A stretch of DNA of 64,000 nt, taken from Symbiodinium natans. Lineage: Eukaryota > Sar > Dinophyceae > Suessiales > Symbiodiniaceae. The notes below the pieces were generated by a model. It was not told where the DNA came from. It saw only the letters and a program-made list of their open reading frames with translations, and searched no databases. The stretch is from assembly GCA_905221605.1 (NCBI GenBank), contig CAJNDS010000413.1, forward strand, positions 410,010 through 474,009, in the 5' to 3' direction. Shown one piece after another: positions 54,162-57,833 of the stretch; the first letter of the stretch is position 1, and each line of letters starts with the position of its first letter. Both the position numbers and the translations under genes were made by a program.

Positions 54162-57100
54162 GTGGTTCAAACCGCTTGGATCCTGAATGACCAGGGTGGT
54201 GATAGACAAGCTGTGTTTCAAGCATTGGGTTTCACGACAACGCACTACCAGCATGATCTCCACAGCAAGGGTCATGTTCGTTACCTGTTAAATAAGCTAG
54301 AAGTAGAGGTTCCTTCAGTTATCTGGGTTAGACTAGGCGGCCCAAATTGTGGAACAGGTAACAAACATGACACCTTGCGTGCAGAACATCTGTGTTCTCT
54401 TGCCGAGAGACAGCAACGTGATGGTAGGTTGGTTGTGTTGGAGGCCAATGCCAAAAACTTGGCATGGAATCTGCGCAGCATTCAGCGTCTCGTGGAGGGA
54501 CTGAGTGTGACAGAGCATGCTTGGTGTGCTCATGAAAAGACCTTAGGCGCAGGTTCCATTCCTTGTAACAGCCTCATTCGCGTTGCCACTAATGGTGATC
54601 TCCACGCTGGATTCAGATGCAAGTGCCCCCAAGATATGACGCACATCCATATGAGAAAAATGACAGATGCGGAACGCACAGCACGCTATTCAGTGGTCCT
54701 CAGAAGTCTTGTTTGGACGGTGTTGCAGCGGTCGGTTAATATACCGACGTACACTCAGCGAACGGCTGAGAATGCACGCGTGAAAGCTAACAGTACAGCC
54801 CCAATGCACACGCAACCCGAGTCCATTTACCTTCCAAAGAGACTTCAGGTTGATGGGATACGGACGGATCGTGAAGATATGTTGGTATCTCATGCAGCCG
54901 TGGATTCTGAGACCATGGCAAAGCGTGCACGTCTTGATGCCCAGTACGATTTTCAAACATGTTTGCAACTGTTATCCTTATGTAAGTTCGTGAAAAGTGC
55001 TAGATCACGTGCAGCCTCCAGCGACAACGCACATGCTGATGCGGGGGTATACGTTTTCGGTTTGTACAAGCACGGAAACTACATAGGGGTAACTAGCCGA
55101 ACATACGAGCATAGTGAACTTGTGAGATATTTGAATGCCTTTTGCAAGAACCATTTTGCCGAAGCGCCCTGGACCAGCATATCGCTGAACGACAACGTGC
55201 AGCTTCGTTTGCATCGTGACAGCCGAAATCTCTCCTCGTCCAGTAACCAACTCATAGGGTTAGGTGGTTATAGGGGTGGGGAGATTTGGGTCGAAACAGA
55301 TGCATTGGTAGCGCAAACTATCAATTCCAAAAACCTTGTGTACAAGCAGCTCGATGATGGAACAGTTGTTCCAGGCCAGCTAGTCTCATGCAAGCATCGC
55401 ATGATCAGCTTCAGTCCGCGTCTCTTGCATTGCACTGAGCCTTGGGACGGCCAACGCATCACCGTTGCACTTTATTGTAATCGGGCTATTGTTGAGTTGA
55501 AGGGTGAAGAAGTCAAGTTCTTGGCCAGCTTGGGATTTCCATGTCAACAGACAGTTGACCAGCACCTTCAAATAGAGACTCTGGAACCTGGAAGCAGCTT
55601 TCCTACCGAAGGAGCCATTCGATACAAAGAAATGTTGAAGGCCGGACATAAACCCAAGTCAAAAGTCAAACGCGTAGAGCAGCATAAAGATGACCTGGGA
55701 GACTGTTTGGATTCAATCCTTGCATGCGTGGAATGCACAGGATGGACAGCTTCCTTGCTAGGGTCTGTGTCCGAGACTGCAACATCCTTGAATGCAGTCC
55801 CCTTCTCAAATCTATCAGGTTTGTATTTTTTTTGGGGTAACCGCAGGGATAGCCCGCCGGACTCTTCAGTGACCGAATCCTTTCCCCTCACCCGTGAGGC
55901 GCAACGTGGAGCGGTTATTCATGTGATCGAGTTGTTTGGTGGGGAAGGTCGTACTTCTTACTTATGTTCAAAGCTTTATGGGTTAAATACGGGTGAGAAC
56001 TATGATGCAGTTAATGGCTACGACCTTTCCGACCCCAAAGAATTAAATGCAGTTCTGAACTACATTGCGCAAAATAAACCGCTCGTAGTGGTGATGTCTC
56101 CTCCTTGTGGGCCCTTTGGACCAATAAGTAGGCTTAACAGAGTAATCAATCCCCAAACCTGGCAAAACTCGAGAAGAGAGGGATCGCATTTAGCTGCAGT
56201 CTGTGCAAAAGTAGCTGAAATTCAGATTGCTGCGAATAGGCACTACCTGATCGAACAACCAAAGGGTAGTGATCTTTGGAAACTGCCAGAGTGGACAAGT
56301 CTGGCGGCGAAGCATCCTCCTTTCAAGGTGTCGTTTGATCAATGCATGCTTGGCCTTCGCATGCCGGTGCACCCTTTTCTTCCGATTCGCAAACCTACCG
56401 AGGTCTGGGCCTCGCATCAGTACCTGATTGCCAGACTGCAAGACAAGCAATGCAGTCAGAACCACGAACACGCAGGTGTGTCACGTTTGTCCGATCGCAA
56501 ATTCGGGATTCCAAGTTCTCTTGCTCAGGTTTGGCCCCTGAAGTTTTGCAAAGCCATTGCTGTCGGAATTGCTGATCTGGCAGCAGGGGCCTTTGCCTCA
56601 ATGTTTCCTTCTGCGTCCAGCTCATCTGCAGATACACGCGCCTTGGAATGCCCCGGGTGCAGATGGCACAAACGAAAGGATGACCCTACGCACATCAGGG
56701 TTGGTGATTGTAAGTATCCCGGGGTAGAACCTAAGATTTGGGGTTGCGTAGGATGCAAAAACAGTAGACCTCGTGTGCATGCTGACCACACTCTTGATGA
56801 CACATGTCAGTGGGCAGTTGCCCGTTCTATGCCCGAGGGTGCAGTGCGCGAACGCATGGGTCAGCATCCGCGTGATCCCAGAATTGCCTCGGCGCGTGAG
56901 CCCACTGCTGCAGCCAGGTTAAGTAGCGAACGTTCCCGCAAGCCTTCTAGGGGCGGTCGTGAAAATTCCGGTGGTTCAGGTCCTGCGCGACGTGATGGAG
57001 TTGCGCAGGTTGTGGAAGGAGGAGCTGGGCCCAGTGCTCCAGCCATTCCGGTTGTTGACGTCGCTCCTGTTGCAGCAGATGTCGCAGCTGCTGATGGGGT

Positions 57101-57833
57101 AGTCGATGCTGTCGGTGTGCAGGCCGATGTTGCTCCCGACCCGGAAGCGGGGTGGACACGGTTTGATCTCGGACATGCCTTGCAAATGCTAAGAAGCGTG
57201 CGTGAAGCAGTGGTGCGCAGAACCTTGCGCAAGCTTCACATTCGATGGTATCACTGCAGTAGTGCCAAAATGAAAGCGCTCTTAGCTGCAGCTGGTGTAG
57301 ACTCCAAGATTTTGGCCCTTGTGCCAGAAATTGTTGACACTTGCGCGGTGTGTCGCGCCTGGGCCAGACCAGGGCCGAGTGCAGCGGTATCCACACGCCT
57401 CCCTGTTGCCTTCAACGAGGAAGTCCAAGTTGATCTACTTTTCATAGAACGTAAAACAATCATTCATATGATCGATGTATGTACCCGCTTCACAGTGGCT
57501 CATGTAATTCCCACAAAAGAAACCGATGATCTCTTGACAGCAATACAAAAGTTCTGGGTTGGACTTTATGGTCCACCATCGAAAATAGTTGCTGATCAAG
57601 AAGGAGGTTTAAACTCTCCCGATGCTGCCGCGTGGTTGAGCGCTCGTGAGATTGTCTTAGAGCCAAAGGCCAAATATGCGCACGCAAACGTCGTGGAAAG
57701 GCATCACGAGATCCTGCGAAGGCAGGTGCATTTACTTAAGGATCAGACCTTATCGGATGGAGTTCGGATAAGCTTTGATTCCATCCTTGCAGAAAGTGTG
57801 TTTGCCAAAAAATGCTTTGTTCAGGGTCGGTAA
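54162..57833 (+). CDS. copia-2 methyltransferase-like/2OG-oxygenase/C5-methyltransferase-like/integrase polyprotein
   Basis: 1223 codons; starts at a GTG by convention, and the frame is open upstream, so it is probably joined to ORF1 by frameshift. Residues 1-190: degenerate methyltransferase-like module (VIWVRLGGPNCGTGN near 54, LVVLEANAKN near 90, C-x-C...HIH near 153). Residues 285-450: 2OG/Fe(II)-oxygenase-like domain with H351-R-D353, GGYRGGEIWVE, H423 and R432 (HCTEPWDGQR). Residues 585-800: C5-methyltransferase-like domain with VIELFGGEG (motif I), MSPPCGPFGP with Cys649 (motif IV), LIEQPKGS with Glu698 (motif VI), and CSQNHEH. Then a Cys finger near 830-870, a proline/alanine linker, and integrase: H1026, H1031, C1061, C1064, D1091, D1145, E1179. 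Truncated by a +1 A in an A6 run before the integrase C-terminus. Confidence 0.85.
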   Translation: MVQTAWILNDQGGDRQAVFQALGFTTTHYQHDLHSKGHVRYLLNKLEVEVPSVIWVRLGGPNCGTGNKHDTLRAEHLCSLAERQQRDGRLVVLEANAKNLAWNLRSIQRLVEGLSVTEHAWCAHEKTLGAGSIPCNSLIRVATNGDLHAGFRCKCPQDMTHIHMRKMTDAERTARYSVVLRSLVWTVLQRSVNIPTYTQRTAENARVKANSTAPMHTQPESIYLPKRLQVDGIRTDREDMLVSHAAVDSETMAKRARLDAQYDFQTCLQLLSLCKFVKSARSRAASSDNAHADAGVYVFGLYKHGNYIGVTSRTYEHSELVRYLNAFCKNHFAEAPWTSISLNDNVQLRLHRDSRNLSSSSNQLIGLGGYRGGEIWVETDALVAQTINSKNLVYKQLDDGTVVPGQLVSCKHRMISFSPRLLHCTEPWDGQRITVALYCNRAIVELKGEEVKFLASLGFPCQQTVDQHLQIETLEPGSSFPTEGAIRYKEMLKAGHKPKSKVKRVEQHKDDLGDCLDSILACVECTGWTASLLGSVSETATSLNAVPFSNLSGLYFFWGNRRDSPPDSSVTESFPLTREAQRGAVIHVIELFGGEGRTSYLCSKLYGLNTGENYDAVNGYDLSDPKELNAVLNYIAQNKPLVVVMSPPCGPFGPISRLNRVINPQTWQNSRREGSHLAAVCAKVAEIQIAANRHYLIEQPKGSDLWKLPEWTSLAAKHPPFKVSFDQCMLGLRMPVHPFLPIRKPTEVWASHQYLIARLQDKQCSQNHEHAGVSRLSDRKFGIPSSLAQVWPLKFCKAIAVGIADLAAGAFASMFPSASSSSADTRALECPGCRWHKRKDDPTHIRVGDCKYPGVEPKIWGCVGCKNSRPRVHADHTLDDTCQWAVARSMPEGAVRERMGQHPRDPRIASAREPTAAARLSSERSRKPSRGGRENSGGSGPARRDGVAQVVEGGAGPSAPAIPVVDVAPVAADVAAADGVVDAVGVQADVAPDPEAGWTRFDLGHALQMLRSVREAVVRRTLRKLHIRWYHCSSAKMKALLAAAGVDSKILALVPEIVDTCAVCRAWARPGPSAAVSTRLPVAFNEEVQVDLLFIERKTIIHMIDVCTRFTVAHVIPTKETDDLLTAIQKFWVGLYGPPSKIVADQEGGLNSPDAAAWLSAREIVLEPKAKYAHANVVERHHEILRRQVHLLKDQTLSDGVRISFDSILAESVFAKKCFVQGR

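Follow-up and report, generated by a model that had tools for sequence, protein, structure and literature searches.

A copia element with an oxygenase-like domain in Pol

The window analysed here, a 64,000-nucleotide stretch of the genome of the dinoflagellate Symbiodinium natans (contig CAJNDS010000413.1, positions 410,010 to 474,009), carries a complete and young Ty1/copia retrotransposon. Its Pol region encodes a 2-oxoglutarate/Fe(II) (2OG/Fe(II)) dioxygenase domain akin to the TET/JBP enzymes of viruses, with a methyltransferase-like unit on either side; we call these units MT1 and MT2. The element runs from 50529 to 61214, with two identical 326-bp long terminal repeats (LTRs) and a 5-bp target duplication. 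It shows the features expected of Ty1/copia elements: LTRs, a likely primer binding site, a target-site duplication and the order Gag, protease (by position), integrase and reverse transcriptase (RT), with an RVT_2 match. As predicted from the open reading frames (ORFs), the domain order in Pol is MT1, TET, MT2, integrase and RT. The features are as follows.

50524..50528, no strand: left target-site duplication GATCT (5 bp), from the border analysis
50529..50854, + strand: 5' LTR, 326 bp, ends AGTT...AACT, identical to the 3' LTR
50855..50866, + strand: likely primer binding site TGGTAGCGGAGC, by position, directly 3' of the 5' LTR
50755..54123, + strand: ORF1, Gag-protease, with a weak zinc knuckle (residues 681-697, E 0.033) and a protease assigned by position only
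54162..57833, + strand: ORF2, MT1, oxygenase, MT2 and integrase; 1223 codons, frame open from 54111, -1 relative to ORF1
54162..54701, + strand: MT1, methyltransferase-like unit, ORF2 residues 1-180; homologous to MT2, catalytic Cys position unconserved
55047..55541, + strand: TET/JBP-like 2OG-Fe(II) dioxygenase domain, ORF2 residues about 296-460
55212..55220, + strand: H351-R-D353, putative iron ligands one and two
55428..55457, + strand: H423 (putative third iron ligand) to R432 (putative 2-oxoglutarate arginine)
55917..56591, + strand: MT2, C5-methyltransferase-like unit, residues about 586-810; FGGEG 592, C649, E698, KPT 744
57237..57674, + strand: integrase, with an HHCC-like zinc motif that starts at residue 1026 and an rve core at 1085-1171 (rve E 1.4e-4)
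57775..60759, + strand: ORF3, remaining integrase, RT and RNase H region (RVT_2 E 1.2e-21)
60889..61214, + strand: 3' LTR, 326 bp, ends AGTT...AACT
61215..61219, no strand: right target-site duplication GATCT

A first-pass annotation of this DNA had read an oxygenase layout of H351, D353, H423 and R432 between the Gag/protease and integrase of a copia element. Every one of these residues is where it was placed, the domain does lie between ORF1 and the integrase, and the copia label holds (rve, E 1.4e-4; RVT_2 in ORF3, E 1.2e-21). The motif GGYRGGEIW begins at residue 368, and H423 falls within HRMISFSPRLLH, which starts at residue 412 (H423 and R432 were counted from the motif starts). Written as a DNA pattern (W-T ... 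N-x5-H-x-D), the oxygenase core matched at two places in the 64 kb, one in ORF2 and the other in another copia element; 100 shuffled windows gave no match (mean 0.00), so the motif layout is more than chance.

Searching the window's own assembly (759 Mb, 2,543 contigs) with the oxygenase returned 1,543 candidates. All 150 that were scored matched (E <=1.1e-22, window copy included); none had an internal stop, and many lay in open frames of 2,000-4,800 codons. From these 150 matches we hand-picked 20 loci, which together with the focal copy form a set of 21 that includes three near-identical groups (L144/L145, L146-L148 and L151/L156/L162). All 21 copia copies, which go down to ~30% identity, share the residues H351, D353, N356, G373, W376, H423 and R432. 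Loss of the H-x-D/H residues across the family, which the first-pass annotation had named as the outcome that would speak against its oxygenase, is thus seen in none of the 21.

Seven close relatives (L143-L149) all encode ORF1, MT1, oxygenase, MT2, integrase and RT in this order. The pairing of oxygenase and methyltransferase-like units in one polyprotein ahead of the integrase is therefore not peculiar to the window copy. MT1 to integrase is a single open frame in six of the seven; L145 is broken between oxygenase and MT2. Integrase was recognised in 12 of the 20 loci; the oxygenase precedes it in 11 of them and lies after it, ahead of RT, in one (L150). The latter position is also that of the second copia element of the window:

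17710-25526, - strand: second, divergent copia element, with the oxygenase between integrase and RT
19891..20356, - strand: homologous oxygenase of the second element, with a frame change at 20177/20178 (tblastn E 1e-9 with ORF2, 1.6e-10 with the domain)

By its sequence, then, the oxygenase is present in several copia lineages of the genome. Because it occupies two Pol positions in different lineages, it would be either old in Pol, position-mobile or captured more than once.

The LTRs of the element end in AGTT...AACT, unlike the TG...CA that usually bounds LTRs, and the likely primer binding site TGGTAGCGGAGC resembles the initiator-Met tRNA type. ORF2 overlaps ORF1 at 54111-54123 in the -1 frame, an arrangement resembling programmed frameshifting that is found in the window copy and six of the seven close relatives whose offsets were determined; in the exception, L143, ORF1 and ORF2 share one frame with a stop between them.

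Kinship to viral TET/JBP enzymes

Compared with the whole PHROG library, without prior selection, the oxygenase domain matched PHROG 6059 (E 3.9e-4), and a scan of the full ORF2 placed this match on residues 332-386 (E 0.0036). Three viral members of PHROG 6059 also match Pfam Tet_JBP (1.5e-12, 3.2e-8 and 6.4e-5, the first alone over the cut-off). The family carries the label 'queuine tRNA-ribosyltransferase', probably a mislabel, since the three members scanned match Tet_JBP.

In viral contigs, the strict core pattern identified 10 loci, seven of which are such oxygenases, and a relaxed pattern at least 120. Among the resulting 128 viral loci, 127 were open-frame pattern matches and 125 of these had a later H...R/K. 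Two of the 125 (L003 and L005) were rejected as chance, being by eye an unrelated repeat-rich protein despite the pattern match, and L004 was rejected because its frame is not open. In a single BLASTP comparison, the focal domain and viral protein L006 shared 28% identity across 127 columns (E 6e-10). H351, D353 and H423 align with their counterparts in 25 viral proteins, and the R432 column is conserved in at least 90% of the 26 rows. A profile of the 21 copia copies matched a profile of 22 viral proteins with an hhalign probability of 99.1% (E 7.9e-19, score 117.5); none of 60 column shuffles did as well (maximum 22.5). The viral set had been chosen by a pattern taken from the focal domain itself, and the viral side of the hhalign comparison is the same set.

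We therefore give weight to a comparison in which the nine pattern residues were hidden. Scored with a hidden Markov model (HMM) of L006, L012 and L014, the masked focal domain reached 16.1 bits (E 4.8e-4) and ranked second of 1,325 sequences, behind its own unmasked copy; the best of 500 shuffles reached 5.6 bits. The segment after the HxD motif was barely recognised by a three-member profile (0.012). Two of these three closest viral relatives, L006 and L014, have a TET-associated glycosyltransferase nearby (PF20691; 1.1e-9 and 4.2e-8); in the neighbourhood of L012 the scan covered two ORFs only. In L006 an N6/N4 methyltransferase stands between the TET-like gene and the glycosyltransferase. 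The other long ORFs of L014 have, by eye and without Pfam support, the look of a small eukaryotic DNA virus.

The predicted fold points in the same direction. With 25 of the 128 viral relatives in the alignment, AlphaFold2 (AF2) modelled residues 253-850. The oxygenase core (model residues 81-190) had ten-residue block means of 68-91 in the predicted local distance difference test (pLDDT), with one block at 48, and a strand run as expected for a double-stranded beta-helix. A Foldseek search of the PDB with this model returned CcTet chains at ranks 1-12 (best E 9.3e-5) and human TET2 at ranks 13-16. Prolyl hydroxylase and AlkB were rejected as the nearest class because their Foldseek ranks are weaker than those of TET. 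The structure check proposed in the first-pass annotation came out in favour of its oxygenase, with beta-helix strands and TET at the top of the ranking; the methyltransferase part of the model had low confidence (block means 23-74).

A number of results weigh against this assignment. Pfam PF12851 (Tet_JBP) reached only E 0.21 on ORF2, in a match that was dropped because it falls on the wrong stretch, and a Pfam scan of the oxygenase domain alone gave only an unrelated chance match. Against the whole genome, PF12851 had 0 matches (32 candidates), as it did in the control genomes; on the closest viral relatives Tet_JBP scored 0.11 (L006), 0.014 (L012) and nothing (L014). An NCBIfam scan was silent, and the second element's two oxygenase pieces had no PHROG match. 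Larger phage-type profiles did not recover the masked focal domain (E 4.5 with 47 rows, in which L012 occurs twice; unlisted with 44 rows), the first piece of the second element, masked likewise, went unrecognised in the same HMM test (E 17), and so did the focal segment after the HxD motif when compared with a viral profile of 48 members, left after a 70% redundancy cut of 123 (E 7.2). The whole AF2 model had a mean pLDDT of 49.9, and with the three window rows only the mean fell to 36.8 with no fold. Foldseek TM-scores were low, 0.12-0.17 of query, since a large share of the query is unfolded; the prolyl-4-hydroxylase 4j25 appeared at rank 17 (human ABH2, 3bu0, followed at rank 31). Nor is the fold result independent, because the AF2 alignment is drawn from the pattern-chosen viral set. 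Selection on the oxygenase is estimated from few changes: in pairs with usable dS, Nei-Gojobori ratios of nonsynonymous to synonymous substitution (dN/dS) were 0.05, 0.09, 0.14, 0.24, 0.29, 0.29 and 0.57, on 3-13 differences per pair between related copies. Finally, the window copy changes frame at a six-A run (57807-57812) inside the integrase. The seven close relatives do not share this change, possibly a lesion or a fault of the assembly: integrase and RT match in one open frame in all seven (in L148, the first 104 RT residues only), with some of these matches ending at the edge of the fetched stretch.

Direct searches were uninformative. Single-sequence queries of Pfam, NCBIfam and the PDB yielded nothing useful, and tblastn of the oxygenase against phages gave five matches to internal virion proteins (E 0.2-0.3). 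The copia proteins found no relatives in the viral contigs, where L006 as query found itself only; L006 found none in phages.

Taken together, a TET/JBP-like oxygenase is backed by PHROG, the masked HMM of three relatives, hhalign, Foldseek and conservation, whereas PF12851 and the larger masked sets do not bear it out. We regard the failure to reach the PF12851 cut-off as a matter of detection threshold, not a biological trait, and it is for this reason that we write 'TET/JBP-like'.

The methyltransferase-like units

The first-pass annotation also claimed a C5-methyltransferase-like domain, and the motifs it cited are in place: FGGEG at 592, C649 (in SPPCG from 646) and E698 (in IEQP from 697), the last two counted from their motif starts. 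A genome search with MT2 gave 369 candidates, and 142 of the 150 scored matched (E up to 8.7e-4). For alignment, 21 sequences (focal included) were reduced to 11 by a redundancy cut, and 12 hand-picked for spread from the 142 were added. Read by eye, 20 of these 23 rows have the motif IV Cys, 12 within PC and 8 within PPC; 22 rows have the motif VI Glu, mostly as EQP, ENP or EHP. Motif I, which is FGGEG in the window copy, is a full FxGxG in 5 of the 18 copies with that stretch and [FCY][GAS]G in 15 of them (by eye). In the close group (focal copy plus seven), the Glu is present in all eight and the Cys in six, having gone from L143 (by deletion) and L149. The methyltransferase-like stretch of the second copia element has, by eye, no PPC motif. 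Loss of PPC across the family, which the first-pass annotation had taken as telling against it, is thus partly what we see.

Canonical family membership is harder to support. PF00145 had no match on the MT2 copies scanned, and by eye the 117 PF00145 matches and 142 MT2 matches in the genome share no place among the matches listed. No motif VIII RxR, target recognition domain (TRD) or motifs IX-X were seen by eye in the MT2 alignments, which show a KPT-type stretch instead. The 23-row profile matched seven canonical C5 enzymes with an hhalign probability of 6.6% (E 0.0055, score 27.1), with none of 40 shuffles as good (maximum 19.4), and a viral C5 set with 6.4%, again with none of 40 shuffles as good. 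With 11 rows, 4 of 60 shuffles equalled the match, which did not rise above them. A search for bacterial C5 loci found none, and tblastn of MT2 against phages gave no match. As PF00145 is silent, the profile probability low and the 11-row run not above shuffles, we do not file MT2 as a member of the C5 family; its motifs weakly suggest a C5-methyltransferase-like unit. Of the first-pass claim, the motif order and the mostly kept Cys and Glu stand, while the silence of PF00145, the 6.6% hhalign probability and the missing Cys in two of eight close copies go against it.

MT1 is homologous to MT2 (hhalign 93.5%, E 2.3e-7, none of 40 shuffles as good). The genome holds nine matching MT1 loci, window copy included, among 12 candidates. 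At the aligned catalytic position, a Cys occurs only in the window copy of the eight compared and is absent from the other seven; in L146-L148 a Cys precedes that position by one residue, and L143, L144, L145 and L149 lack one in this place. Because the aligned Cys is unconserved, MT1 is probably not catalytic.

Elsewhere in the window, telomere-like interstitial CCCTAAA/TTTAGGG and other short tandem arrays lie beside the element (46200-50200 and 63850-63995); the 64 kb hold 288 CCCTAAA and 257 TTTAGGG heptamers, which, like the 759-Mb assembly, suits a dinoflagellate host. Remnants of a non-LTR-type element, with RVT_1 and RNase H matches, are found at 27610-30888 on the - strand. A dinoflagellate spliced leader was sought in the 64-kb window and was not found.

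Possible roles of the captured domains

On balance, we lean towards the view that a Ty1/copia Pol captured a TET/JBP-class 2OG/Fe(II) dioxygenase that oxidises a 5-methylpyrimidine in DNA and thereby alters a silencing mark. The oxygenase would be freed from the polyprotein, or would work while still joined to integrase/RT in the particle. Its predicted substrate would be the methyl group of a 5-methylpyrimidine, most likely 5-methylcytosine (5mC) in element DNA that has just been synthesised or integrated, perhaps also thymine, and the oxidation would change or dilute the host's silencing mark on element DNA. The two flanking methyltransferase-like units form a tandem pair, in which MT1 probably binds or folds rather than catalyses; MT2 could retain methylating activity or could serve only to bring the oxygenase to DNA. 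Base hypermodification in DNA is suggested because two of the three closest viral relatives have TET-associated glycosyltransferase genes in their vicinity.

Alternatively, the oxygenase may act on RNA or protein, demethylating element RNA or hydroxylating a host or Gag protein. Copia domains travel in an RNA-protein particle, the Foldseek list also includes a prolyl-4-hydroxylase (4j25, rank 17) and human ABH2 (3bu0, rank 31), and an AlkB-type 2-oxoglutarate-dependent dioxygenase domain of an orchid Ty3/gypsy element is described, in the part of PMC9289625 consulted, as demethylating RNA N6-methyladenosine (m6A) in vitro. We nevertheless consider such a role rather unlikely, as in both sequence and fold the domain stands closer to TET/JBP than to AlkB or prolyl-4-hydroxylase (on the sequence side, the profile comparison covered TET/JBP alone), and two of the three closest viral relatives stand near TET-associated glycosyltransferase genes. 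A further possibility is that MT2 is an active C5-methyltransferase whose product, 5mC, the oxygenase converts to 5-hydroxymethylcytosine, such that the element would hypermodify DNA of its own. In favour of this, 20 of 23 MT2 rows retain the motif IV Cys and 22 the motif VI Glu, and the match of MT2 to canonical C5 enzymes exceeds 40 of 40 shuffles (27.1 against 19.4). There is viral precedent in L096, where a PF00145 gene (4.1e-7, over the cut-off) adjoins a TET-like gene, and a phage trio of C5-methyltransferase, TET/JBP and glycosyltransferases appears in the section of PMC12730594 used here. This reading we judge unlikely, given the hhalign probability of just 6.6%, an 11-row run that 4 of 60 shuffles equalled, the lack of any PF00145 match or of a place shared by PF00145 and MT2 among the matches listed, a strict PPC in only 8 of 23 rows, the unseen TRD and RxR, the Cys gone from L143 and L149 and a mostly dead-looking MT1. 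Moreover, the fetched stretches of the 128 viral loci held no C5-methyltransferase by a strict regular expression and two by a looser one.

Least probable of all, and in our view scarcely credible, is that the captured domains have no enzymatic role and, in a family that is decaying, are carried along as passengers or serve as structural linkers. Frames are broken in the window copy and in L145, and MT1 and some MT2 copies lack catalytic residues; set against this are the invariance of seven oxygenase residues across all 21 copies, the 150 of 150 scored copies free of stops, dN/dS below 0.3 in six of seven pairs and identical LTRs.

The L096 arrangement, a TET-like gene with an adjoining short C5-methyltransferase gene (1644-3117 of that locus), has at least 598 confirmed related stretches in viral contigs.

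TET/JBP genes are known from fungal DNA transposons and Helitrons (Kyakuja, Plavaka, ESTA and others) and, in the words of the portion of PMC12730594 consulted, from 'no retrotransposon'. Like the copia element, these are mobile elements with a TET/JBP dioxygenase, for which a role against methylation-based silencing is proposed there; theirs is a separate gene, whereas the copia oxygenase is a domain of the Pol polyprotein flanked by methyltransferase-like units. In the open-licence PMC literature, a scope exclusive of subscription papers and preprints, we found no LTR retrotransposon reported to carry a TET/JBP domain. Captured DNA methyltransferases (DNMTs) are described in Symbiodinium LINE and DIRS elements (SymbioLINE-Dnmt and SymbioDIRS-Dnmt3; de Mendoza 2018, PMC5890265), and the sections of that paper used here state that Symbiodinium copia 'lacks any DNMT domain'. 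According to excerpts of PMC12344493, DNMT3 occurs in copia LTR elements and in DIRS elements, with streptophytes and dinoflagellates cited for the two element types together. These, too, are retrotransposons, some of them copia, and they carry a captured cytosine methyltransferase (PMC5890265, PMC12344493, as far as these excerpts go); theirs belong to known DNMT families, whereas MT2 is silent to PF00145 and is accompanied by an oxygenase. The viral TET/JBP proteins (PF12851/PHROG 6059 phages; L006, L012 and L014) share the core NxN-x5-HxDxxN ... GG ... H ... R and the 99.1% profile match, but are single genes, some near glycosyltransferases, and the copia ORFs here have no glycosyltransferase match. 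The orchid elements of PMC9289625, in the part cited above, are likewise LTR retrotransposons with an extra 2OG-Fe(II) dioxygenase; they are gypsy, with a separate ORF of AlkBH5 type acting on RNA m6A in vitro, in contrast to the copia, Pol-internal and TET/JBP-type domain here.

According to the passages of PMC6723414 consulted, 5-hydroxymethyluracil (5hmU) replaces 12-70% of thymine, for a reason called unknown, and is likely generated by TET-family enzymes. In Breviolum minutum, 5hmU is enriched on repeats, and a primary role in repeats is called 'quite possible' in the corresponding parts of PMC11071213. One could suppose that the copia TET/JBP-like domains, and not a host gene, make the oxidised pyrimidines of dinoflagellate DNA, from thymine (giving 5hmU) or from 5mC at repeats, acting from at least 150 loci. 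We hold this to be very unlikely; the conclusions of PMC11071213, the part of that source relied on here, single out Maverick, not copia, which counts against it.

The copia oxygenase is nonetheless a concrete candidate for the base-oxidising enzyme behind dinoflagellate 5hmU, and the element may show how retrotransposons manage, or even create, unusual DNA marks in their hosts. Were the supply of 5hmU by copia to prove true, a mark on which dinoflagellate chromatin depends would be retrotransposon, and ultimately viral, in origin.

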